A stretch of DNA of 64,000 nucleotides, from contig NZ_NFJZ01000013.1 of the NCBI RefSeq assembly GCF_002160135.1, positions 1-64,000 of the forward strand, read 5' to 3'. The DNA is from Lachnoclostridium sp. An196 (lineage in GTDB: Bacteria > Bacillota > Clostridia > Lachnospirales > Lachnospiraceae). A program made the position numbers and the translations under genes. The notes below the pieces were generated by a model. It saw only the letters and a list, made by a program, of their open reading frames with translations. It was not told the origin of the DNA and did not search any database. Shown piece by piece: positions 536 through 11,288 of this stretch (the stretch's first letter is position 1; every line of letters starts with the position of its first letter).

Positions 536-1969
536 TCATCCAAACATTTTCTTTACCAGTTCACTTTTATCCGTCACGTTTTTCGGCATATACCTCCGGA
601 TCACCTGCTGGGAGGAAGCGAACCCCATCAGCTCCGCGATCATGTCCGAGCTGGCTCCGGCACGAACTGCCCGGATCGCATAGGTATCCCGGAGCATGCG
701 CGGCGTTACGGAACCCATGCCGCAGGCCTGCGCCCGGCGCATCAGCACAGCCCGCATCCGGTCCATGCGCACGGGCTTTTTCTCAGAGCCGCCCAGCACA
801 AAGCCGTCCGGTTCCCCGCGGTATTCCCGCTTTACCTGTTCCAGCTGCTCCGCAATAAAGTCAGGTACCGGCACTTCCCGCCTTTTCCTTCCGCTTAATG
901 CTTCCAGTTCATAATGACGTTCTTCCGCGCCTCCGGTCCCCAGCTCTCTCTTCACGGCGACGAAATATTCCAGGCGAAGTCTCCTTCTTTCCAGGTCCAC
1001 GTCCCTCCAGCGCAGCGCCGCCGCCTCGCTCAGCGAGATCCCGGTATAAAGCACCAACCGGAACCCGAGCCCGATGGGGTACCCTTCTTCATCCTGGTAA
1101 GCAGACAGCTCCGGTTCCAGTATCCGCACCTGTTCCTCGCTCAGCCATTCCTGCCGTTCCCATACGTTTCTGCCCTGGAGGGTCCAGGACGGCCCGATGC
1201 AGGGATTGCGGTCGATCAGACCGGACTTCTGCGCGTCCTTCATGCACCCGCTTAGTACAGACAGGGTGTTGCGCACGGTTCCTTCCGTCATATGACCGTT
1301 CTGCGTCCCGGCCAGGGGCATGCTCTCCAGCCCCCGGAGCCATCCGGAGACTGCCTCTTCCGTCAGGTCTTCCAGCTTCCGGTCTCCCAGGGCAGGCAGG
1401 ATATGCCGCTCCATAGTCTCCGCGTACATGCGGATCGTGGTCTCCTTCACCACATGGGGCAGTACGCTGCGGAGCCATACATACACCCAGTCTTCCAGCG
1501 TAACGATCCTGGAGGTATCACCCTTCTGGAAAGCTTCCCTCTTCGCTTCCAGCGCTCCGTCATACTGGCGCTCCAGGTAGTCTCCTTTTCCCGGACGGAT
1601 CCGGTCGCAGCCGCAGCTTTTTACCTTGCCGTTTTTCAGGTCTCTGGTGGCAATGCTCTTTTCCCTGCCGCAGTCGCAGCGGCAGATGACTTTCTGGAGT
1701 GTCGTGTGATTATCCAAATCTTCCGCGATGACCGTCAGTTTTCCAAACCGTTTCCCTATCATTTTATCAGCCGTAGAACGAATGCAGCCGCAGCTTTTCC
1801 TGCGGCCGCTTTTCAGCAGATATCCTTCTACCCTGCAGGTATTGCCGCAGTCGCAGCGGCACTCCCAGAGTGCCACCCGCTGTCTGCCGGCCTGGCCGTA
1901 ACCGGCGAATCCGGTCACCACCAGTTTTCCAAATCGTTCCCCGGTAATATCCCTACCGGTCCTCGACAT
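536..1969 (-). CDS. Degenerate tyrosine recombinase with N-terminal CxCG zinc-type repeats
   Basis: This 477-residue protein has two N-terminal repeats (about residues 8-62 and 69-121). Each has an RFGKL motif, a CRCDCG motif and a KSCGC end, as in zinc-binding repeats of phage proteins. A SAM-like core-binding domain (about 155-255) and a tyrosine recombinase catalytic domain (about 270-470) follow. Key residues are altered. The first catalytic Arg is Ser312 (TGISLSE), the His of HxxR is Arg424 (RMLRD), and the GH motif is GF (Phe450). Arg427 and Tyr460 remain. It is the last gene of the pilus operon and overlaps the anchor pilin gene by 17 bases, which suggests translational coupling. Strand exchange is doubtful; a DNA-binding or accessory role in the upstream switch is my inference. 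Confidence 0.85.
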   Translation of the reverse strand: MSRTGRDITGERFGKLVVTGFAGYGQAGRQRVALWECRCDCGNTCRVEGYLLKSGRRKSCGCIRSTADKMIGKRFGKLTVIAEDLDNHTTLQKVICRCDCGREKSIATRDLKNGKVKSCGCDRIRPGKGDYLERQYDGALEAKREAFQKGDTSRIVTLEDWVYVWLRSVLPHVVKETTIRMYAETMERHILPALGDRKLEDLTEEAVSGWLRGLESMPLAGTQNGHMTEGTVRNTLSVLSGCMKDAQKSGLIDRNPCIGPSWTLQGRNVWERQEWLSEEQVRILEPELSAYQDEEGYPIGLGFRLVLYTGISLSEAAALRWRDVDLERRRLRLEYFVAVKRELGTGGAEERHYELEALSGRKRREVPVPDFIAEQLEQVKREYRGEPDGFVLGGSEKKPVRMDRMRAVLMRRAQACGMGSVTPRMLRDTYAIRAVRAGASSDMIAELMGFASSQQVIRRYMPKNVTDKSELVKKMFG

Positions 1970-2639
1970 TCGTATCCTGCTCCTTTCCGCGGTGATATCC
2001 TGCCGCCAGGATCAGCACCACCAGGGAGACCACGGCCAGGAATATCCACAGCGTCAGGTTGGCGCTGTCGCCGGTCTTCGGTGTGGACACTGCGCTGGTC
2101 TGGGATACGGGCGTCGCCGTCCCGGAGCTTTCTCCGTCGGAATCGTCCCCGCCGCCTCCGCTGCTCCCGCTGCCGCGGTAGCTGTTCTCAAAGCGGATCG
2201 TATCCGTCTTCTCCGTGCTGTCTCCTTTCACTGCCCAGAGCTCCGCGCTCAGGCCTCCGTCCTCCGCGTTCGTCACGCGGACTGTCACCTGGTATGCCGC
2301 GGTGTCATAAGTACACCGGGAATGTCCCATATCCTTCTGGGTGATCCGGTATGTATAATCTCCGGGTACCGTATAAGTGATCGGCCCGAACAGCCTCTCG
2401 CTCGCTCCCAGCATGCTCAGTGTCGTCTCCGCGGGCATGGGCGCGCCTTCCGTCACTGCTTCCAGTACCACCTGGTATTCCGCGTCCTTCGGGATCGACC
2501 GTCCGGATACGGCTACCTCCACCGGGATCGATACCGATCCGGTACTCCCCGCTGCCCGCGCCGGAACCAGCAGCACGGCAAACAGAACCGGAAGGAGCAG
2601 CAGCGCGCAGAACTTCTCGATCTTCTGAATCATCTTCAT
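1953..2639 (-). CDS. Minor/anchor pilin with Spy0128 (FctA)-type isopeptide domain and LPXTG-like signal
   Basis: The 228-residue product has a signal peptide (MKMIQKIEKFCALLLLP, cleavage near ARA-AG) and one Spy0128/FctA-type pilin domain (about 35-155, with the typical GPITYTVPGDYTYRI segment and a closing RFENSY strand). A Ser/Gly/Asp linker, a TPKTGD sorting motif, a membrane helix and a charged tail follow. TPKTGD differs from the PTG-type signals of the other two pilins, so it may be handled by the housekeeping sortase and form the pilus base. The chosen ATG lies 8 bases after AGGAGG and starts just after the sortase stop codon. An upstream ATG at 2666 would overlap the sortase gene and has a poorer site. 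Confidence 0.85.
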   Translation of the reverse strand: MKMIQKIEKFCALLLLPVLFAVLLVPARAAGSTGSVSIPVEVAVSGRSIPKDAEYQVVLEAVTEGAPMPAETTLSMLGASERLFGPITYTVPGDYTYRITQKDMGHSRCTYDTAAYQVTVRVTNAEDGGLSAELWAVKGDSTEKTDTIRFENSYRGSGSSGGGGDDSDGESSGTATPVSQTSAVSTPKTGDSANLTLWIFLAVVSLVVLILAAGYHRGKEQDTNVEDR

Positions 2640-2640
2640 C

Positions 2641-3411
2641 TCAGGCACCTCCTTCCTGTATTTCATTCATCGGGTCCAGCCGGCCGAATACGATCACCCG
2701 GCCGTTGGTCTCCGCCTCCGCGCAGGTGGACAGCCCGATGATCCGGTCGTCTTCCGTCATGCCGATGTCCCGGTACTGTGCCGCCTGTTCTTCTATATAA
2801 TCCAGCAGCGCACCCGTCCCTTCCCCGTTTACCGCAGAAATATTATAAATCTGCTGGTCATAGGCGTCCGCCTCCACACAGGCGAACAAAGTGATCGAAT
2901 ACGTGCTGTCCGGCAGGTACAGAGTACCTGCCGTATGTTCCTCAAAATACGTCCGGTCCGTGAATTCCACTACGTCTCCGAACATGGCCCCGTTATCCAT
3001 ATGGTGTCCATATACCAGCGTATACGGATCGGAAAAATCCGGACTGTTCTGGCTGGCCATGAAGATGGCTCCGGACAGGGCAAAATCCCCATACACGTCC
3101 TTATTCACATACTCCATGTCCGTTTCCCCCTGGACCACCGGATAATCGATGTGCGTGCCGTCCACCGTCAGCCAGGCCCGCACGTCCGGGTTGATCTGCT
3201 GCAGCTCGGCAAGCGTGGGATTCCCCGCCTCCGTGCTGTCTCCGGAGGGTTTAAACTGCAGGAGGTCGTTGGAAACGAACGCGCCCCGGTACACTGCCCA
3301 GGTGTCCCAGAGGGAGTACGCCCCGTACACGAACATCAGGGCGATTAAAAGCAGGGCAATGAAGCTGATGAGCCGGTTGCCGGCCCTGGCAAGTCTGGCG
3401 GCTGCTCCCAT
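2641..3411 (-). CDS. Class B sortase (pilus assembly)
   Basis: This 256-residue membrane-anchored transpeptidase has an N-terminal membrane helix (about 14-34). The SrtB-type signature NPDVRAWLTVDGT lies near 74-86. Catalytic His136 is in YGHHM, Cys230 in LSTC and Arg238 in NGRVIVFGR. Sortases cleave a sorting signal and join pilin subunits or attach them to the wall. Class B enzymes serve as pilin polymerases in many Clostridia, which fits its place between the major pilin and the anchor pilin. GGAGG lies 5 bases before the ATG. The substrates are probably the PTG-type signals of the major pilin and tip adhesin, but that is inferred from context. Confidence 0.92.
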   Translation of the reverse strand: MGAAARLARAGNRLISFIALLLIALMFVYGAYSLWDTWAVYRGAFVSNDLLQFKPSGDSTEAGNPTLAELQQINPDVRAWLTVDGTHIDYPVVQGETDMEYVNKDVYGDFALSGAIFMASQNSPDFSDPYTLVYGHHMDNGAMFGDVVEFTDRTYFEEHTAGTLYLPDSTYSITLFACVEADAYDQQIYNISAVNGEGTGALLDYIEEQAAQYRDIGMTEDDRIIGLSTCAEAETNGRVIVFGRLDPMNEIQEGGA

Positions 3412-3622: not shown

Positions 3623-4777
3623 TTAGAATTCGCTGTGTCTTCTGCGCAGGAACAGGAACGCAACGCCTGCTGCCGCGACTACCATGATAGCGTAGGGCGC
3701 GATGGTCATGGCGATGCCGGTGGGGGTGGAAGCAGTCTTGTCGTTGGTGTATACAACAGACACATCAGCATTGATGCCATCCTCTTCTTCGACCGTCAGG
3801 CCTCCATTCAAATTATACGTTACTTCATCGACAGTTGCCGTAGTGGTATAACCCTCTTTCGTACCATAGCTTTCTACAATCGTGTATGTATCTTTTGCGC
3901 TCAGGCCATAGATGGTAATCGACTCATTATTGCCAAGGGTAACAACGGTACCCTCGTTATCTCCGATTATTCTATCTTCCTCCCCTTGTTGTCTGAGAAC
4001 AAATTTGTCGTTAACATTATCGGCATTGATCGTAACTGTAAAATCAAATTCATCGTTTAGATTTGCCACGTTTCCGGTGATTTTTTTGGTAAGTGTCAAA
4101 TCGTATACAGTATCTTCTCCACTTTCATCCTTACCATATTTATTTGTGAAACTGTCATCTTTATATGCAGAAGCTTCAGGATTCTCTCCAGCATTTACCA
4201 ACATAACATAGGCAACTTCACGATCAGGTATTTTATCATTATTTTCATCGATATAATTTCCGTCCTGATCAAGTTTATTTTGAATATAAACGTAAAGGTC
4301 TTTTGCTTCAGTGCTGTAGGTGACTCCGTCATACGGATTTGTGCTATCCTCTGCAACGGAATATTTATAAATACCAGGCGCATTATACATACTAAGGTTA
4401 ACTTTAAATGTAGCCTTCTCATCTTCTGTACGATCCACAGTCGGTACCGTCGTACCCGGATCAAAATTAGCGCCTACAGTTTGTTCTATATCTCCCGTTG
4501 TACCTGCCTGGACCGGGATGTCACCAATTGTCTGTTCTCCAACATTTGTAGCTCCAGTAATCGTGAAACCGAACGTTACATCCGGAGTCATGATATAAGC
4601 CGGAATCTTCAGATGCTTGGTGATAGTAAAAGTATCGCCCGTAGAATAAACATACTCCGATTCCGCCGGATCACCCTGTTGTGCAAACGCTGTCATCCCT
4701 ACCATGGATACCATCATTGCTCCTGCCATCACGGCTGCCGCCAGCCGGCGGGAAATGTTTTTGTGTTGATGTTTCAT
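3623..4777 (-). CDS. Major (backbone) pilin with isopeptide-type domains and TPTGI sorting signal
   Basis: This 384-residue surface protein has a signal peptide ending at AFA-QQ (about residue 32). An FctA-like pilin domain (about 40-215) is followed by a DUF5979-like Ig domain (about 222-345, with TLTKKITGNV and VVYTND). The TPTGI motif is at 351-355, followed by a hydrophobic helix and the tail FLRRRHSEF. It is probably the shaft subunit joined by the class B sortase. The middle of the gene is visibly richer in A and T than its neighbours, as is common for variable surface genes. An AT-rich 150-base gap separates it from the chaperone gene upstream; I saw no promoter there. Confidence 0.88.
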   Translation of the reverse strand: MKHQHKNISRRLAAAVMAGAMMVSMVGMTAFAQQGDPAESEYVYSTGDTFTITKHLKIPAYIMTPDVTFGFTITGATNVGEQTIGDIPVQAGTTGDIEQTVGANFDPGTTVPTVDRTEDEKATFKVNLSMYNAPGIYKYSVAEDSTNPYDGVTYSTEAKDLYVYIQNKLDQDGNYIDENNDKIPDREVAYVMLVNAGENPEASAYKDDSFTNKYGKDESGEDTVYDLTLTKKITGNVANLNDEFDFTVTINADNVNDKFVLRQQGEEDRIIGDNEGTVVTLGNNESITIYGLSAKDTYTIVESYGTKEGYTTTATVDEVTYNLNGGLTVEEEDGINADVSVVYTNDKTASTPTGIAMTIAPYAIMVVAAAGVAFLFLRRRHSEF

Positions 4778-4927: not shown

Positions 4928-5626
4928 TTATAACCCGGACCTCCGGATCACGGTAATCACTTTGCCTTTGATCTCGTCCCGGCTCACCGGGCCAAAGTAC
5001 CGGCTATCCCGGGCTCCTTCCCGGTAATCGCAGAGGATAAAGTATTCTCCCTCCGCCATCGTCACCGGATAGTCAGGTCCATTCTCATACCGGGGCGTGG
5101 AATAATAGATGTCCGTTTCCAGGACAGTGCTTCCGTTTACCACCAACGTTGCTTCTTCCGTCACTTCCACGGTGTCCCCGCCGCGGGCGACCACGCGTCC
5201 CACGTACTGTTCCCCGTCCTTCTGGAATACCATCACGTCGCCGCTGACGTAATCATCGGCGAGCCGGTAGTACAGGAGCAGATCCCCTGCGGAGATGCGC
5301 GGGGACATGTCGTCATCCGCCATGGGCGTGACTCCGAACACGAAGCCGAACAGCAGCGCCAGCAGCACCGCCATGGCGGCCAGCCTGGTAATAAAGGAGA
5401 CGATATCCTCCGCGTCCGCGCACCGTCTGCGTTTCCGGCGGATCACTTCCTCCGGGGTAACAGGCACGCTGCCTGCCCTGCTGCCTCGTTTGCCGTGCCG
5501 CTTTATCTTTTCCCCACGGCTTTGGTTTCTTTTCTTCACCGGTTTCCCGGGACTGTCTCCCCTGCCCGCCGTGGCAGGAGGCTTGTCCCTGACAACCGGA
5601 CATTTATGTTCAGCCATGGGCATCAC
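4928..5626 (-). CDS. SipA-like pilus chaperone: signal peptidase I fold without the catalytic dyad
   Basis: The 232-residue protein has a long basic cytoplasmic N-terminus (about 1-70), one membrane helix (about 75-99) and an S26 signal peptidase domain ending ARDSRYFGPV...GKVITVI. The catalytic Ser before the Met-x-Pro motif is Asp106 (DDDMSPRI). The catalytic Lys is Gly143 (QYVGRVVARGGD). Streptococcus pyogenes SipA, an essential pilus-polymerisation factor, has the same Ser-to-Asp and Lys-to-Gly changes with the same spacing of 37 residues (Asp48, Gly85). The gene is therefore better read as a pilus assembly chaperone than an active peptidase. Its start overlaps the upstream small gene; ATG codons at 5626, 5623 and 5617 are close together, so the exact start is uncertain. 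Confidence 0.85.
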   Translation of the reverse strand: MMPMAEHKCPVVRDKPPATAGRGDSPGKPVKKRNQSRGEKIKRHGKRGSRAGSVPVTPEEVIRRKRRRCADAEDIVSFITRLAAMAVLLALLFGFVFGVTPMADDDMSPRISAGDLLLYYRLADDYVSGDVMVFQKDGEQYVGRVVARGGDTVEVTEEATLVVNGSTVLETDIYYSTPRYENGPDYPVTMAEGEYFILCDYREGARDSRYFGPVSRDEIKGKVITVIRRSGL

Positions 5627-5849
5627 CGCCGCCCTTCCGGTCTTTTACCCTTGCCAGCGCCTGGCCGCGTTCATCGATCAGCGCCTGGTAGTAGGCAGCC
5701 TGCTCGTCATAGACCAGCTGATAGGTACGCTGGAGATTTTCTATCTGCCTCCATACATCTGCCTCATCCACGCCGCCGAATATCTTTCTGCGAAACTTCA
5801 TATTGGAAAGTAAATCTGCAATATTCTGCATAGTACGCATGACAATCAC
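5610..5849 (-). CDS. Small charged coiled-coil protein of the pilus operon
   Basis: This 79-residue protein starts inside the stop region of the adhesin gene (4-base overlap) and overlaps the SipA-like gene by 17 bases, so it is translated as part of the operon. It has no signal peptide or membrane helix. KFRRKIFGGVDEADVW is followed by a long charged helix (about 30-68) likely to form a coiled coil. The GVDEADV segment recalls the N-terminal GYxxxEVD element of DivIVA/GpsB-type proteins, but the match is only suggestive. A cytoplasmic role in placing the assembly machinery is conceivable. The function is unknown. Confidence 0.7.
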   Translation of the reverse strand: MIVMRTMQNIADLLSNMKFRRKIFGGVDEADVWRQIENLQRTYQLVYDEQAAYYQALIDERGQALARVKDRKGGGDAHG

Positions 5850-8800
5850 CTATCGCGTCGACGGCTGATATGATAAATAAAGAAGCCTCCGAGTAATACC
5901 AGTCCCGTAACTGCAGCAATTGCGGTCATCAGAACGAACGGCGTATTGTTTTGGTTTAATCCGGTAGGTACACCTGTATCAAGTGAATTTATGACTGTCA
6001 CATTTGTGTCCTTTGTTATACTACCTGACGCATTTGATTCATTAGACCAGCTTGTATCATCCACAGTGATTCGAGCCGTATAATCACCTCTAGTCTCGTT
6101 AACCATGCAATAATATCCGTGCGGGATCTCAATTGTCATTTTTTGGTTGTCACTCAACGTAAATGCTGCTGTTTCCCCGTTAAAGGACAGATAAAATCCA
6201 TCATCTTCAACATTTCCCGTAAAACGTTTGGCAGTTGCTGCAATTTTTACATACTCATCCTCAGTTATCTCTTCCGAGACAGCTGATGAAGTCTTTTTGA
6301 TTGTCAATGTAAAATTAAATTTCTCAGATGTATTGCCAAGATTCCCTTTAACTTCTTTACCGACAGTCAGCACTTTATCCTGATGCTTGTAAACATTCAC
6401 AATACCGACCAAGCCTCCCGAGGCTGCTACAGTCGTACTTCTAGGTCCATCATTACTAACATACCCATAGTCCCCCACCTCGTCAGGAAAATCGGATTCA
6501 TCTGTTTTTTCTGAAACGTTATAACTACCCAACGGAAGGTCTTCAACGGTTGCACTGCCCACTCCATTCTCATCTGTCTGAATCATTACTTCCTTGACAA
6601 TATCTGTATTTTCAGAATTTTTTCCCTGAATTATAAATGTAAATTCTTTTCCGTTAAACACGCTCAAATCTGCATCTTCATCGCCCTCAATCACAATCTG
6701 TTTGCAAATCTCCAGATCCGCTTCAGCGGGCGTATATATGTTTGTAAATGATAATATATTATCAACCGTTGACGAAAGCGGCGGCGTTGTCTGCGAAGGG
6801 GTATTTGTCGTAACATTATATCCTTCCGGCGCTGAACAGTTTTCTTCCACTACATAAGTTTTTCCCACTGTCAGTCCTGTCACTTCCGCACTGTAAGTGC
6901 CGTCGCTATTCAACTGAAGAACTATGTTATTCTTTACAATCGTATTACCATCCTTGATCGTAAAAGTAATCAAACTAGCCGCAGCCTCTTTCTCTTCCGG
7001 AGTTTCCAAACCCCCGAAGTCCTTTTTAATGATCAAACTGGTAGATGGAACCTGTACAACAGGCATGGGATATTCCACTGAATGGCTGTTAATCGGCGTT
7101 GTATAAGTCAGCATCGCCTCACCGTCAACATTGGAATAGAAACCGTTCTCTCCAGCAAACGTTCCCGTATCTGGTTCGCCGATCATACCCGACGGATAAC
7201 CGGTCGCCGCATATTCTGTAAAAGCCTTTTCTGTTGGCACGATTTCCAAATGTAGCTCATATGTATAACCCGGAAGTAACGAATATGTATCCATGAATTC
7301 GCATTTCAAAGTCTTCGTGGCGGAATCATAACTGATTTCCTTAATAACATTGCCAACATTTTCTGCATCGTATCTGTCGGTAACAATTTCTCCATCCACA
7401 GTATGTTTGACCAACAAATAAGGTTCGGCTCCGACCGGTGCTTCCACATATGAGGTCAATATGTCTTCAATCATGACATCCGTCATCGAAAGTGAAGTAA
7501 TCTGTGCCTGTATTTTTTCAAAGCTTTCTACCAAGTCATCTGAATCAGTTGCTGTGAATCCCCAAAAATTTTCATTGTCTTCAGAGGCACCGGTCGCCTC
7601 GCGAACTGCATTTCTTACAAGATCCAAATAAGTATCCGCACTACTTTCATTGCCCACTCGGATTGTAAAAAATCCATTTACAAAGTCATAATTTCCAGCT
7701 TCTTCTACTGCATTACCAATATCATCCGGCTGTGTGTAATTTCCACCTCCCGTCTGACTGCCATTACCTGTATAATGAAATGTTGGCTGTCCGTCAGAAA
7801 GAAATACCACATATTTCACTGCATCTGGCCGAGATTCAATAATAGCTGCACGCCCTGATAACAGCCCCGCCTCATAGTTTGTTCCACCATAACTATGTTG
7901 ATTTGCTGCATCAAACACTTGTGAAGCATCATTGGTCCAACTCAAACGCATAATACCGTCGTTATAATATTGTGTATCCGCTATAGAATCGCTAAATGTG
8001 ACAACAGAGAAACGGGCATCCAGGTTTGTATTATTTGCCAACGCAGTTGCCAATGTCTGCGCCTGATCAGCTACAATATACTGATACGATTGATAGCTCT
8101 GAGTTTTAGGGTAATACGTCTGATCCGCCATACTACCCGACTGATCCACAATAAAAAGGACATCTACCTTTTGATTCTCTGTTGCGGTACCAACTGATCC
8201 TGAAACCGTCAACGCAAGATCATAAGTTTTCCCATCATCGTTTGTGACTGCCGCTTTAGAGTATGTTGGCTCAGGCTCATATACTTCTGTACTGTTTTCA
8301 TCTGAACGGCGGTAAATCAGCTCCAGGGAATCCCCTTCATCGCCCTCGTTATCTCTTGTATAAACTCCCGTTTCTCCTGGGAAAACACTGTCGTAAAAAC
8401 GAACTTTATCATTTTTTGCCAAACCATCCAACCCATCTTCTATCCACTCAACAGAGCTGACCGGATGTCGTTCTCCATTTTTAATAATCAGAGTCGCATT
8501 ACGAAATACGTACTCCTCTCCATTTATTAAAATAGTCTGGATTCCATTCTCTGTAACAATCTCTTCAAAGGATATTCGCTCGTTATAAGTTAGTTGATAG
8601 GAAAGATTATAGCTGTCAGAAACATTCAGTTCATTCCCATCTGTATCCACAATCGTAAATTTAATTTCTTCTATCACATCCTGACCGATGAGTTTATCTT
8701 GTATCCAAGTGATTGTAAATGTCGAAAACGACTTCACATCAAACTCCGCCACCACTGCTGGATTCTCAATGCCGTTTTCCACTGTGTCTGCCACATCATC

Positions 8801-9988
8801 CAGTTCACTCAGCAGTGCTACGTCTTCGGACACTTCTGCTTTCTCAGCAGCAGCATCGCTCAATGCTACCACACCGTCCACTTCATCAGAAGTTGTGGCG
8901 GTCGCAACTGTTTCAACTGTAACAGATGCATCTCCATCCTCAGCCAGATGATGTACCGTCAGAGTGCTTGCATCGATATTTTCAGGAAGCGCCTCTTCCG
9001 AAAGTTCAAAACGCACGGATACCGGCACTGCAGGCTCAATCTCTTCTTTCGTATCTTCATCCGTGAAATAAACATCCAGGGCGATCATGCCGTCAAAAAC
9101 GGTCTCTGTCTGCTCTTCCACCGCTGCGGCTGCCTTGCCCAGTTCTTCTTCATCCGTAACAGCATCTGCATGCAGCACCGGTGTAATATCCCCATCAAAA
9201 GCATCTTCCGGCACTTCAACAAATACTTTAACCGTCTGTCCGTCATGTGCCGTTTCTGCCATATAAGTAGTTGCCGCAGTGTCTTCAGCGTCTTCTGCTG
9301 CGTCGGTTTTACCCCCGGCATCTTCTGTCTCTCCGTCACCAGTCTCTCCCGTCACCACATCACTCTGCTCTGTCCCATCCGTACCGCTCTCCCCGGTCTC
9401 TGTCTCCGTCCCGGTTCCTTCGCTTCCGTTCCCATCCGTCTCAGTCCCGGGCGCGATTGTAGTTCCATCTGTTCCATCATCAGCAGCTTCCGTGGTTCCG
9501 TCTGTCACATCTCCTTCAGTCTCGCCGCTCTCACCGGTCGTGGTATCACCGGTTCCGGCCGCCCCTTCTGTTCCTTCCGTACCGCTGGCAGGTGTCTCGC
9601 TTCCGGGTACAGTCGTCCCTTCTGCTCCTTCCGTACCGCTGCCGGATGTCTCAGTCCCGGTTCCGGCCGTCTCGGTCCCGTCGGTTCCGGTCGCATCCGC
9701 AGCGCCGCCGGTCTCGGTACCTGTCCCGGTCCCGTCTCCGGGCACAGTCGCCGTATCTTCACCGGAGCCTTCGTCCCCGACGCTTGTAACTGCTGTGTCT
9801 TCTTCCACAGACACATCCGTGTTCTCAGTCTCTTCCCCGGCAGCCGGCTCCGTCTCTCCGCCTGCTCCCGTGTCCTCCTGGACATTCGTGGCGCTTGCGG
9901 ATACGAAAAGCTCTTCACTGTCCACTACAGACAACATCAGAGTCAGCGCAAGCAGCACTGCCAGGAATCTCTTCGCTTTCTTCCACAT
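5846..9988 (-). CDS. Large tip adhesin: VWA domain, pilin Ig domains, VPTGL sorting signal
   Basis: The 1,380-residue product has a signal peptide (MWKKAKRFLAVLLALTLML) and a low-complexity Gly/Thr/Glu/Ser stalk (about 35-230). A beta-rich region (about 245-600) is followed by a von Willebrand A domain (about 605-835) with DQSGSM, a GGT loop and LSDG forming the metal site. Three pilin/collagen-adhesin-type Ig domains (about 985-1085, 1090-1205, 1206-1335), a VPTGL motif near 1340 and a helix with tail SRRRDR complete it. VWA proteins of this shape are tip adhesins of sortase pili. The ATG at 9988 is preferred over 10033 because it follows GGGGAG at good spacing and directly precedes the signal peptide. 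It is the first operon gene, about 50 bases from the invertible segment. Confidence 0.9.
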   Translation of the reverse strand: MWKKAKRFLAVLLALTLMLSVVDSEELFVSASATNVQEDTGAGGETEPAAGEETENTDVSVEEDTAVTSVGDEGSGEDTATVPGDGTGTGTETGGAADATGTDGTETAGTGTETSGSGTEGAEGTTVPGSETPASGTEGTEGAAGTGDTTTGESGETEGDVTDGTTEAADDGTDGTTIAPGTETDGNGSEGTGTETETGESGTDGTEQSDVVTGETGDGETEDAGGKTDAAEDAEDTAATTYMAETAHDGQTVKVFVEVPEDAFDGDITPVLHADAVTDEEELGKAAAAVEEQTETVFDGMIALDVYFTDEDTKEEIEPAVPVSVRFELSEEALPENIDASTLTVHHLAEDGDASVTVETVATATTSDEVDGVVALSDAAAEKAEVSEDVALLSELDDVADTVENGIENPAVVAEFDVKSFSTFTITWIQDKLIGQDVIEEIKFTIVDTDGNELNVSDSYNLSYQLTYNERISFEEIVTENGIQTILINGEEYVFRNATLIIKNGERHPVSSVEWIEDGLDGLAKNDKVRFYDSVFPGETGVYTRDNEGDEGDSLELIYRRSDENSTEVYEPEPTYSKAAVTNDDGKTYDLALTVSGSVGTATENQKVDVLFIVDQSGSMADQTYYPKTQSYQSYQYIVADQAQTLATALANNTNLDARFSVVTFSDSIADTQYYNDGIMRLSWTNDASQVFDAANQHSYGGTNYEAGLLSGRAAIIESRPDAVKYVVFLSDGQPTFHYTGNGSQTGGGNYTQPDDIGNAVEEAGNYDFVNGFFTIRVGNESSADTYLDLVRNAVREATGASEDNENFWGFTATDSDDLVESFEKIQAQITSLSMTDVMIEDILTSYVEAPVGAEPYLLVKHTVDGEIVTDRYDAENVGNVIKEISYDSATKTLKCEFMDTYSLLPGYTYELHLEIVPTEKAFTEYAATGYPSGMIGEPDTGTFAGENGFYSNVDGEAMLTYTTPINSHSVEYPMPVVQVPSTSLIIKKDFGGLETPEEKEAAASLITFTIKDGNTIVKNNIVLQLNSDGTYSAEVTGLTVGKTYVVEENCSAPEGYNVTTNTPSQTTPPLSSTVDNILSFTNIYTPAEADLEICKQIVIEGDEDADLSVFNGKEFTFIIQGKNSENTDIVKEVMIQTDENGVGSATVEDLPLGSYNVSEKTDESDFPDEVGDYGYVSNDGPRSTTVAASGGLVGIVNVYKHQDKVLTVGKEVKGNLGNTSEKFNFTLTIKKTSSAVSEEITEDEYVKIAATAKRFTGNVEDDGFYLSFNGETAAFTLSDNQKMTIEIPHGYYCMVNETRGDYTARITVDDTSWSNESNASGSITKDTNVTVINSLDTGVPTGLNQNNTPFVLMTAIAAVTGLVLLGGFFIYHISRRRDR

Positions 9989-10034: not shown

Positions 10035-10053
10035 ACTTAATGTTTATTCTGTG
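10035..10053. repeat. Left inverted repeat of the switch (putative recombination site)
   Basis: ACTTAATGTTTATT, one mismatched base, then TGTG. This is the reverse complement of the right site at 10308-10326 with 18 of 19 positions matching. It lies within the 5' leader of the adhesin gene, 47 bases before the ATG, so it would stay in the mRNA in either orientation. Confidence 0.75.
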
Positions 10054-10061
10054 GTGATTAT

Positions 10062-10130
10062 GGGCAGGGACGTCTGCCGGACCGGGCCTGCCCGGGAAAC
10101 ATTTCCGCAGAAAAGCGCGTATAAACGCGC
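10062..10130 (-). other. Two hairpins within the switch
   Basis: GGGCAGG (10062-10068) pairs with CCTGCCC (10087-10093). GCGCGT (10115-10120) pairs with ACGCGC (10125-10130), followed by TTTT on the minus strand. In the sequenced orientation both lie in the path of any leftward transcript toward the adhesin gene. Together with the stronger terminator next to them they would silence read-through. Confidence 0.5.
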
Positions 10131-10175
10131 AAAAACCAGGCCGATGGGAACGGCGGATGCCCATCGGTCTGGTTT
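10131..10175 (-). terminator. Strong leftward rho-independent terminator inside the switch
   Basis: AAACCAGGCCGATGGG and CCCATCGGTCTGGTTT form a 16-bp stem with one G-T pair and an 11-base loop. On the minus strand it ends in five T residues. It would stop read-through from the recombinase gene before the pilus operon in the sequenced orientation. After inversion it would lie upstream of the promoter. Confidence 0.75.
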
Positions 10176-10231
10176 GCGTGTCTTTCTTCCGGTATTCCTT
10201 CAAAAACAGGGATTTTTTTGCGGGAATATCC

Positions 10232-10260
10232 TTGCACTTATAGAAATACCCTGCTATAAT
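10232..10260 (+). promoter_or_regulatory. Near-consensus promoter of the switch, pointing away from the pilus operon
   Basis: TTGCAC (10232-10237), exactly 17 bases, TATAAT (10255-10260). It is among the best sigma-A promoter matches in the window, yet the only gene ahead of it lies on the opposite strand. This misplaced orientation is a main argument for an invertible promoter. Confidence 0.8.
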
Positions 10261-10266
10261 AATTTC

Positions 10267-10341
10267 AAATGTAGTACATTTTTATGTAAGTACGGATCGC
10301 TGTCATACACATAATAAACATTAAGTTATGTGTATTTTTTT
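10267..10341 (+). ncRNA. Possible short RNA made in the OFF orientation
   Basis: The switch promoter should start RNA near 10267. The palindrome ATACACATAA/TTATGTGTAT (10305-10335) followed by seven T residues would end it near 10341. The result would be about 75 bases with a small TACAT/ATGTA hairpin. If termination leaks, the RNA becomes antisense to the 3' end of the recombinase mRNA. No protein is encoded. Whether the RNA has a job or is only the by-product of an OFF promoter is unknown. Confidence 0.4.
10305..10335. repeat. Right inverted repeat of the switch, a palindromic recombinase-type site
   Basis: ATACACATAA and TTATGTGTAT are perfect 10-bp arms around an 11-base centre. The centre and inner arm bases carry the AATAAACATTAAGT copy shared with the left site. 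Two arms around a short overlap region is the usual form of a tyrosine recombinase core site. It ends 14 bases from the recombinase stop codon. Confidence 0.7.
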
Positions 10342-10348
10342 ATGCCAT

Positions 10349-11188
10349 TCACACGACCAGCCCCAGTGCGGCGATCCGCCTGGACTGCTCTTCCCCGCTT
10401 ACCATGGTATAGATCCTGGTCGTATCGATGCTGGAATGTCCCAGCAGGTCCGCCAGATGGGACAGGTCTTTTTCTTTTTTATAATAAGTGCACGCGAACA
10501 GGTGCCTCAGGTTATGGGGAAATACTTTCTCCCTGCTCACTCCCGCTTTTTCACACAACGCTTTCATCTCGTGCCAGATATTGCTCCGGTCCAGGGGCCG
10601 TCCTCTTCTCGTGACGAACAGGCTCCCCTTTTGGATATTTCTTTCTTTCATATATTTTTTCAGGACGCGGCACAATGGCGCCGGCAGCAGCACAGTCCGG
10701 ACTTTTCCTTTCAGGGTGACCTTCGCCCGGCCTTCCTTTACTGCCTCCGCCGTTATGAAACGCAGTTCGCTCACACGGATGCCCGTGGCGCAGATCGTCT
10801 GCATCAGGTAATACAGTCTCTGGTCCTTTTTCTCTCCCGCGGCGAACAGCAGGCGGAGGTATTCTTCCCTGGACAGCTCTTTCTCCCGGCTCCGGAAAGA
10901 TACTTTCTGTATCTTCAGCAGTTTTACCACACAGTCATACCATCCCTGTTCTTTCAGAAAACGGTTCAGCGCGACCAGCATGGAATTGACGCTGGCAGGA
11001 GCATACTTTTCGATCAGGTACTGCTTGTATTCCATCACCTTCTCCTTGTCCACCGGGGCGTCCTGCACAAAAGAGAAGAACACATCCACATCGTGTATAT
11101 ATTTCCCGATCGTGGCCCTGCTCCTCTCTTCTTCCGCCAGCTGCGCCTGAAAGCGCGGGATCATGCTTCGTTCCAGATTATGTTTCAT
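10349..11188 (-). CDS. Intact tyrosine recombinase (XerC/D-like), likely operates the switch
   Basis: This 279-residue protein has an N-terminal SAM-like domain (about 1-95) and a catalytic domain (about 105-279). All usual residues are present: Arg138 (TGIRVSEL), a Lys at 160 or 162, His225 and Arg228 (HNLRH), His251 (LLGHSS) and the nucleophile Tyr260 (TTRIY). AAGGAG lies 7 bases before the ATG, and a promoter lies at 11260-11288. Short solitary recombinases of this type beside surface gene operons commonly invert a promoter. Its stop codon is 23 bases from the right repeat of the putative switch. It is read as a DNA invertase for that segment; no other substrate is visible. Confidence 0.88.
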   Translation of the reverse strand: MKHNLERSMIPRFQAQLAEEERSRATIGKYIHDVDVFFSFVQDAPVDKEKVMEYKQYLIEKYAPASVNSMLVALNRFLKEQGWYDCVVKLLKIQKVSFRSREKELSREEYLRLLFAAGEKKDQRLYYLMQTICATGIRVSELRFITAEAVKEGRAKVTLKGKVRTVLLPAPLCRVLKKYMKERNIQKGSLFVTRRGRPLDRSNIWHEMKALCEKAGVSREKVFPHNLRHLFACTYYKKEKDLSHLADLLGHSSIDTTRIYTMVSGEEQSRRIAALGLVV

Positions 11189-11259: not shown

Positions 11260-11288
11260 AGTATACCCTCCCTATATTTTTTGCACAA
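11260..11288 (-). promoter_or_regulatory. Promoter of the recombinase gene
   Basis: On the minus strand TTGTGC (11283-11288), 17 bases and TATACT (11260-11265) lie about 70 bases upstream of the recombinase ATG and outside the invertible segment. Recombinase expression should therefore not depend on switch orientation. Confidence 0.55.

Follow-up and report, generated by a model that had tools for sequence, protein, structure and literature searches.

A probable invertible promoter, paired with a tyrosine recombinase, in front of a sortase-pilus operon of Lachnoclostridium sp. An196

The window analysed here, a stretch of 64,000 nucleotides from Lachnoclostridium sp. An196 (contig NZ_NFJZ01000013.1, positions 1 to 64,000), carries a minus-strand operon of six genes that spans positions 9988 to 536. 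The first gene (5846..9988) encodes a pilus tip protein or adhesin of 1380 aa with von Willebrand A, DUF7604 and DUF7601 domains, and is followed by genes for a signal peptidase I-like (SipA-like) protein (4928..5626), a major pilin with a DUF7601 domain and a QVPTGV-class sorting signal (3623..4777), a class B sortase (2641..3411; TIGR03064 above its cut-off) and an FctA-like minor pilin with an isopeptide domain and a sortase B sorting domain (1953..2666). With a pilus sortase, pilin bearing a sorting signal and an isopeptide domain, an adhesin and a SipA-like peptidase, this is a sortase-assembled pilus operon of the FCT type, and its gene order is kept in five relatives. The last gene (536..1969), which overlaps fctA by 17 nt, encodes a tyrosine-recombinase-like protein that is catalytically degenerate and carries two Cys-rich, zinc-ribbon-like repeats at its N-terminus. 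Past this gene, 536 bp remain to the first base of the window, which is also the first base of its contig (G000:C5).

Upstream of the adhesin gene, two inverted repeat arms, both putative recombination sites, lie at 10035..10053 (target side) and 10308..10326 (recombinase side). They agree at 18 of 19 positions, the inner 14 bp are perfect, and 254 nt (10054..10307) separate the 19-nt arms. Re-measurement confirmed the earlier description of a 14-bp perfect repeat, extended to 18 of 19 positions, around about 264 bp, which is the distance between the 14-bp arms; the other numbers of the earlier note were likewise right within 1-2 bases. The score of the repeat pair (15) was higher than in 60 of 60 dinucleotide shuffles (maximum 11), in 18 of 18 regions 3' of other tyrosine recombinases (maximum 10) and in 105 of 105 random 800-bp windows of the same genome (maximum 13); a chance origin is excluded. 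No second copy of the exact site pair was found elsewhere in the genome. The target-side arm, with the spacer TGTTTA/TAAACA and the inner arm CACAGAA, agrees with the family consensus ACCACATAAT-N4-ATTATGTGGT discussed below, and the inner arm on the recombinase side reads CACATAA. Both outer half-sites (10035-10038 and 10323-10326) have TTAAG where the family and the closest relative, G014, have TTATG, an identical change that looks as if the two copies had been homogenised by exchange. Such diverged outer half-sites could reduce the activity of a switch; those of G014 are intact.

The segment contains a predicted sigma-A type promoter, TTGCAC-N17-TATAAT (10232..10260, plus strand), which points toward the recombinase gene and away from the pilus operon. 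Its -10 box (10255-10260) is perfect and extended by a TGC at the end of the 17-nt spacer, but its -35 box (10232-10237) matches the consensus at only three of six positions, which is why the standard promoter scanner missed it and why the earlier label "near-consensus" was too generous. Position and spacing are kept in G014, in Eisenbergiella and in other pilus-type cassettes, which share TATAAT and the 17-nt spacer (16 nt in one). At the predicted start site lies a 15-bp palindrome, AAATGTAGTACATTT (10267..10281), nearly kept in G014 and absent in the others, a possible operator that might add a second layer of control. The hairpins noted earlier as leftward were found at 10133..10175, where the fold predicts a strong stem followed by a U-tract on the minus strand and G014 has a comparable hairpin, and at 10115..10130, where a second terminator-like hairpin lies on the same strand; the folding z-score of the segment RNA is -3.65. 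That terminators reverse their function on inversion did not hold as a general rule, given that the ON-oriented segment of the relative G305 also has a forward terminator.

On the other side of the segment lies an intact gene (10349..11188, minus strand) for a tyrosine recombinase of 279 aa, which ends 22 bp from the right repeat and not 23 as had been counted. It matches Pfam Phage_integrase with 102 bits, its nearest solved structures in the PDB are XerA/XerD, and the complete catalytic set (R138, K162, H225, R228, H251 and Y260) is present and invariant in an alignment of nine relatives. It is neither an XerC/XerD equivalog (125.9 of 329.6 bits for XerD and 116.7 of 335.2 for XerC, relative to the NCBIfam cut-offs) nor a FimB/FimE-type invertase (30.5 and 32.3 of 221-222 bits for PRK09870/PRK09871), and its dN/dS of 0.20 indicates purifying selection. 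A predicted promoter of its own, TTGTGC-N17-TATACT (11260..11288, minus strand), is kept in G014. Autoregulation of the recombinase through ACATAAT half-sites in its leader was considered and rejected, as such half-sites are kept only in the window and G014 and show no enrichment across the family, with 6 of 92 loci against 7.9 expected.

The short segment with flanking repeats well above chance, and a promoter that by consensus and comparison would face the target in one orientation only, are the marks of an inverton, and we consider it very probable that 10035-10326 is a site-specific invertible promoter with the adjacent tyrosine recombinase as its invertase. Between the target-side repeat and the adhesin ATG lie only 46 bp, which leaves no room for a promoter of the operon outside segment and repeat; transcription of the operon must therefore start within these or arrive by read-through from the recombinase gene, and in the present orientation the hairpin at 10133..10175 would be expected to halt such read-through. 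In this OFF state transcription from the promoter would run rightward and enter the recombinase gene in antisense from its 3' end, with the leftward terminators shielding the pilus operon from recombinase transcripts. When the segment is inverted in silico, the -10 box moves to 10101-10106 and the predicted start to about 10094, with all hairpins behind the promoter; recomputation gave a leader of about 106 nt to the ATG at 9988 and so reproduced the geometry and the leader of about 105 proposed earlier. Inversion at both sites would thus switch on the adhesin, signal peptidase, pilin, sortase B, FctA and terminal degenerate recombinase genes. We infer from this layout and its conservation that inversion occurs in this strain, that the neighbouring enzyme carries it out and that transcription follows the orientation.

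The arrangement is not confined to this locus. We found more than 100 cassettes in gut Clostridia in which a recombinase is followed directly 3' by a repeat pair and then usually by a surface-related target; once duplicates were removed, 125 cassettes were compared. Congeneric relatives of the recombinase share 48-70% identity, and in the full-length ones a comparable inverted repeat immediately follows the gene on its 3' side. Such a repeat occurs in about 68 of 80 loci of the genome collection, mostly from gut Clostridia, as well as in most of the wider family, and of ten loci without it six are on contigs that stop 27-107 bp past the gene. Sites of the family form a 24-bp dyad whose arms are conserved around a variable 4-nt centre, as is expected for the core site of a tyrosine recombinase; the regular expression used for them fixed CATAA/TTATG and left the remaining conserved columns free. 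The targets are diverse and include signal peptidases, Listeria-Bacteroides repeat and collagen-like proteins, leucine-rich repeat proteins, CpsB/CapC and some regulators. A mobile origin of the cassette was rejected, with identity no higher than about 46% in phage relatives and about 53% in plasmid relatives, of which the best lie on large gut-Clostridia records; a search of viral contigs yielded no relative, and hence no inverted copy from the same species. At one locus (L073 8736-9197, Fournierella massiliensis An912) an inverted repeat of about 100 nt takes in the recombinase 3' end, which reflects either an artefact of assembly or the duplication of an inverton edge.

Both orientations occur among sister cassettes. 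L011 and L015, from two congeneric species, share a segment that lies in opposite orientation over its full 322 bp between collinear flanks, and further inverted pairs are L049/L050, L050/L083, L014/L015 and L012/L026. Among the pilus-type cassettes, the promoter faces away from the operon in the window, G014, Ca. Eisenbergiella merdipullorum, Ca. E. stercoravium and G335, and toward it in G305, which has the same gene order. The expectation that related genomes would show the flipped segment was consequently borne out by sister cassettes and by the ON-oriented G305, but not by G014, which has the same orientation as the window; no inverted copy of the window's own segment was seen, and no inverted segment-to-segment alignment was found within the pilus subgroup, where the segments are too diverged. 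The captured orientation, facing away from the pilus genes as in most relatives, was soundly interpreted as OFF by the earlier note.

This orientation prevails throughout the family: with both strands of each segment scored, the promoter faces away from the target in 85 of 100 callable cassettes under lenient and in 51 of 59 under strict calling (p about 5e-13 and 9e-9), the strict ratio of 51:8 being approximate, with species partly dependent and some calls misjudged (e.g. L014). A clear one-sided promoter is present in 59 of 125 segments compared to 13 of 375 shuffled ones, and in the strict set the -10 box lies at a median of 63 bp inside the repeat toward which it fires when facing away and of 66 bp when facing the target, i.e. 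the two states are mirrored. The excess points to a family-wide bias toward OFF, robust in its direction. Antisense transcription into the recombinase gene may contribute to it, and the OFF state may stabilise itself because the promoter then fires against that gene. Contigs end within 150 bp of the recombinase more often on its 3' side, where the inverton lies (6 of 80), than on its 5' side (1 of 80), which is weak evidence for coexisting orientations.

The same antisense geometry can be read in another way, namely that the orientation mainly regulates the recombinase by transcription from the segment promoter, with any effect on the pilus genes secondary. In most cassettes the promoter does point toward the recombinase 3' end, and the convergent layout is conserved; nevertheless, it is on the target side only that genes need a promoter, ON-oriented relatives exist, and in the window leftward terminators part recombinase and pilus genes. 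We regard this reading as unlikely, although antisense regulation of the recombinase may operate alongside inversion. Alternatively, a once-active switch might have become locked in the OFF state in this lineage through decay of the outer half-sites, and both the TTAAG of the two outer arms and the orientation shared by the window and G014 would agree with that. The same change in both copies is more easily explained by exchange than by two independent mutations, however, and purifying selection on a recombinase with complete catalytic residues, together with open reading frames of adhesin, pilin and sortase, makes a locked switch quite improbable.

The invertase could also be a different recombinase acting in trans, as RecV does on several sites of C. 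difficile, with the neighbouring enzyme acting elsewhere. Trans-acting invertases are known (PMC5903667) and the genome has 18 integrase-family matches in all, but this recombinase subfamily and this type of site occur together at more than 100 loci, 18 other tyrosine recombinases lack such an adjacent site, and the site pair is unique in the genome, so that we consider this very improbable. A last reading, in which the repeats arose by chance or terminate a small mobile element, has a negligible probability: short elements with inverted ends do exist, yet there is a single pair in the genome, its place and geometry are conserved between species, and chance is excluded by the control scores. 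An inverton served by its own recombinase remains our preferred reading.

The degenerate recombinase at the end of the operon was an unexpected finding. Its fold is that of the tyrosine-recombinase superfamily, like the Tn1549 integrase, but the catalytic residue set is incomplete: in 12 of 12 aligned members Arg I is replaced by S or T, His II by R and His III by F or Y, with Arg II and Tyr invariant, and recombinase activity is unlikely. The protein is nonetheless 81-82% identical in G014, where it occupies the same place, compared to 35% for the adhesin and 37% for the pilin, and its dN/dS is 0.15. We found 13 copies of the gene in 5 of 17 congeneric genomes, mostly beside genes for adhesins or other surface proteins and several directly behind sortase-type adhesin genes, with two paralogues in the same genome (G000:C1:442883-444307 and G000:C28:149775-151193). 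G305 and G335 showed no copy in their pilus regions, and the switch therefore does not need it. That selection preserves a dead recombinase within phase-variable adhesin operons is suggestive of a DNA-binding regulator. Tentatively, it might be made only in the ON state, bind the recombination sites or the segment, and control the switch or adhesin promoters, as a domesticated "dead integrase" regulator of phase-variable adhesin operons in the genus. If this were true, an active invertase silenced by antisense transcription in the OFF state and a dead integrase would together form a two-recombinase feedback switch.

One of these copies adjoins a 1265-aa sortase-type adhesin that lies behind a second inverton of the same genome (G000:C1:437917-438999; L217 7918-9000, also L236), which is about 1.08 kb long, has GAATACCTAAT-type flanking repeats and contains its own tyrosine recombinase. 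This segment is inverted in the congener G013 between collinear flanks (84% identity inside, 91% and 94% outside). In G013 (G013:C2; L237 11918-12547), a serine-recombinase-like gene whose product starts with IYGYIRVSTKE lies upstream of another adhesin gene, which is followed by a degenerate recombinase.

If this interpretation is right, a clonal on/off switch controls the sortase pili of little-studied gut Clostridia, and genomes and cultures in which OFF cells predominate may therefore conceal pilus expression. For a whole family of self-contained switches in Lachnospiraceae and Oscillospiraceae, the recombinase and the recognisable 24-bp site offer a search handle, while the family-wide OFF bias and the conservation of the dead recombinase open switch bias and feedback to direct testing.

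Tyrosine recombinases that invert promoters before surface genes, to which the earlier note pointed for gut bacteria and C. difficile, are known from the literature on E. coli, C. difficile and streptococci. In fimS of E. coli, the tyrosine recombinases FimB and FimE invert a promoter segment of about 300 bp before a pilus operon, much as proposed here, but that system serves chaperone-usher fimbriae and not sortase pili, it employs two active recombinases, and the window's enzyme matches the FimB/FimE models only far below the cut-off. C. difficile, likewise a member of the Clostridia, inverts segments upstream of surface genes through a tyrosine recombinase, RecV, which acts in trans on several sites (PMC5386303, PMC2784873, PMC5903667), in contrast to one recombinase and one site per cassette in the present family. 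A PhaseFinder-type survey of gut invertons describes intergenic promoter invertons near surface genes and two groups in which Firmicutes_A predominate and the repeat motifs are new; its main text names neither sortase pili nor Lachnospiraceae (PMC11892184). Sortase-dependent pili are phase-variable in another gut commensal, Bifidobacterium breve, by replication slippage instead of inversion (PMC9187656).

In the open-access literature we found no description of a sortase pilus operon of Lachnospiraceae under an inverted promoter, and to that extent the suggestion that the combination may be undescribed holds for the pairing with a pilus, but not for the geometry. In Streptococcus zooepidemicus, short inverted repeats surround an invertible promoter before the LPXTG surface protein SZO08560, the recombinase SZO08550 is adjacent, inverted reads were seen, and after inversion the promoter drives transcription of the opposite strand of the recombinase gene, a geometry that was used to measure the inverted state (PMC2654543). 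Its target is a single surface protein and not a pilus operon, its 10-bp repeats (GTAGACTTTA) are unlike the window's site, and no degenerate recombinase is noted there. The class of switch is thus known, while the conserved version described here, with a disabled recombinase ending the pilus gene set, looks undescribed.
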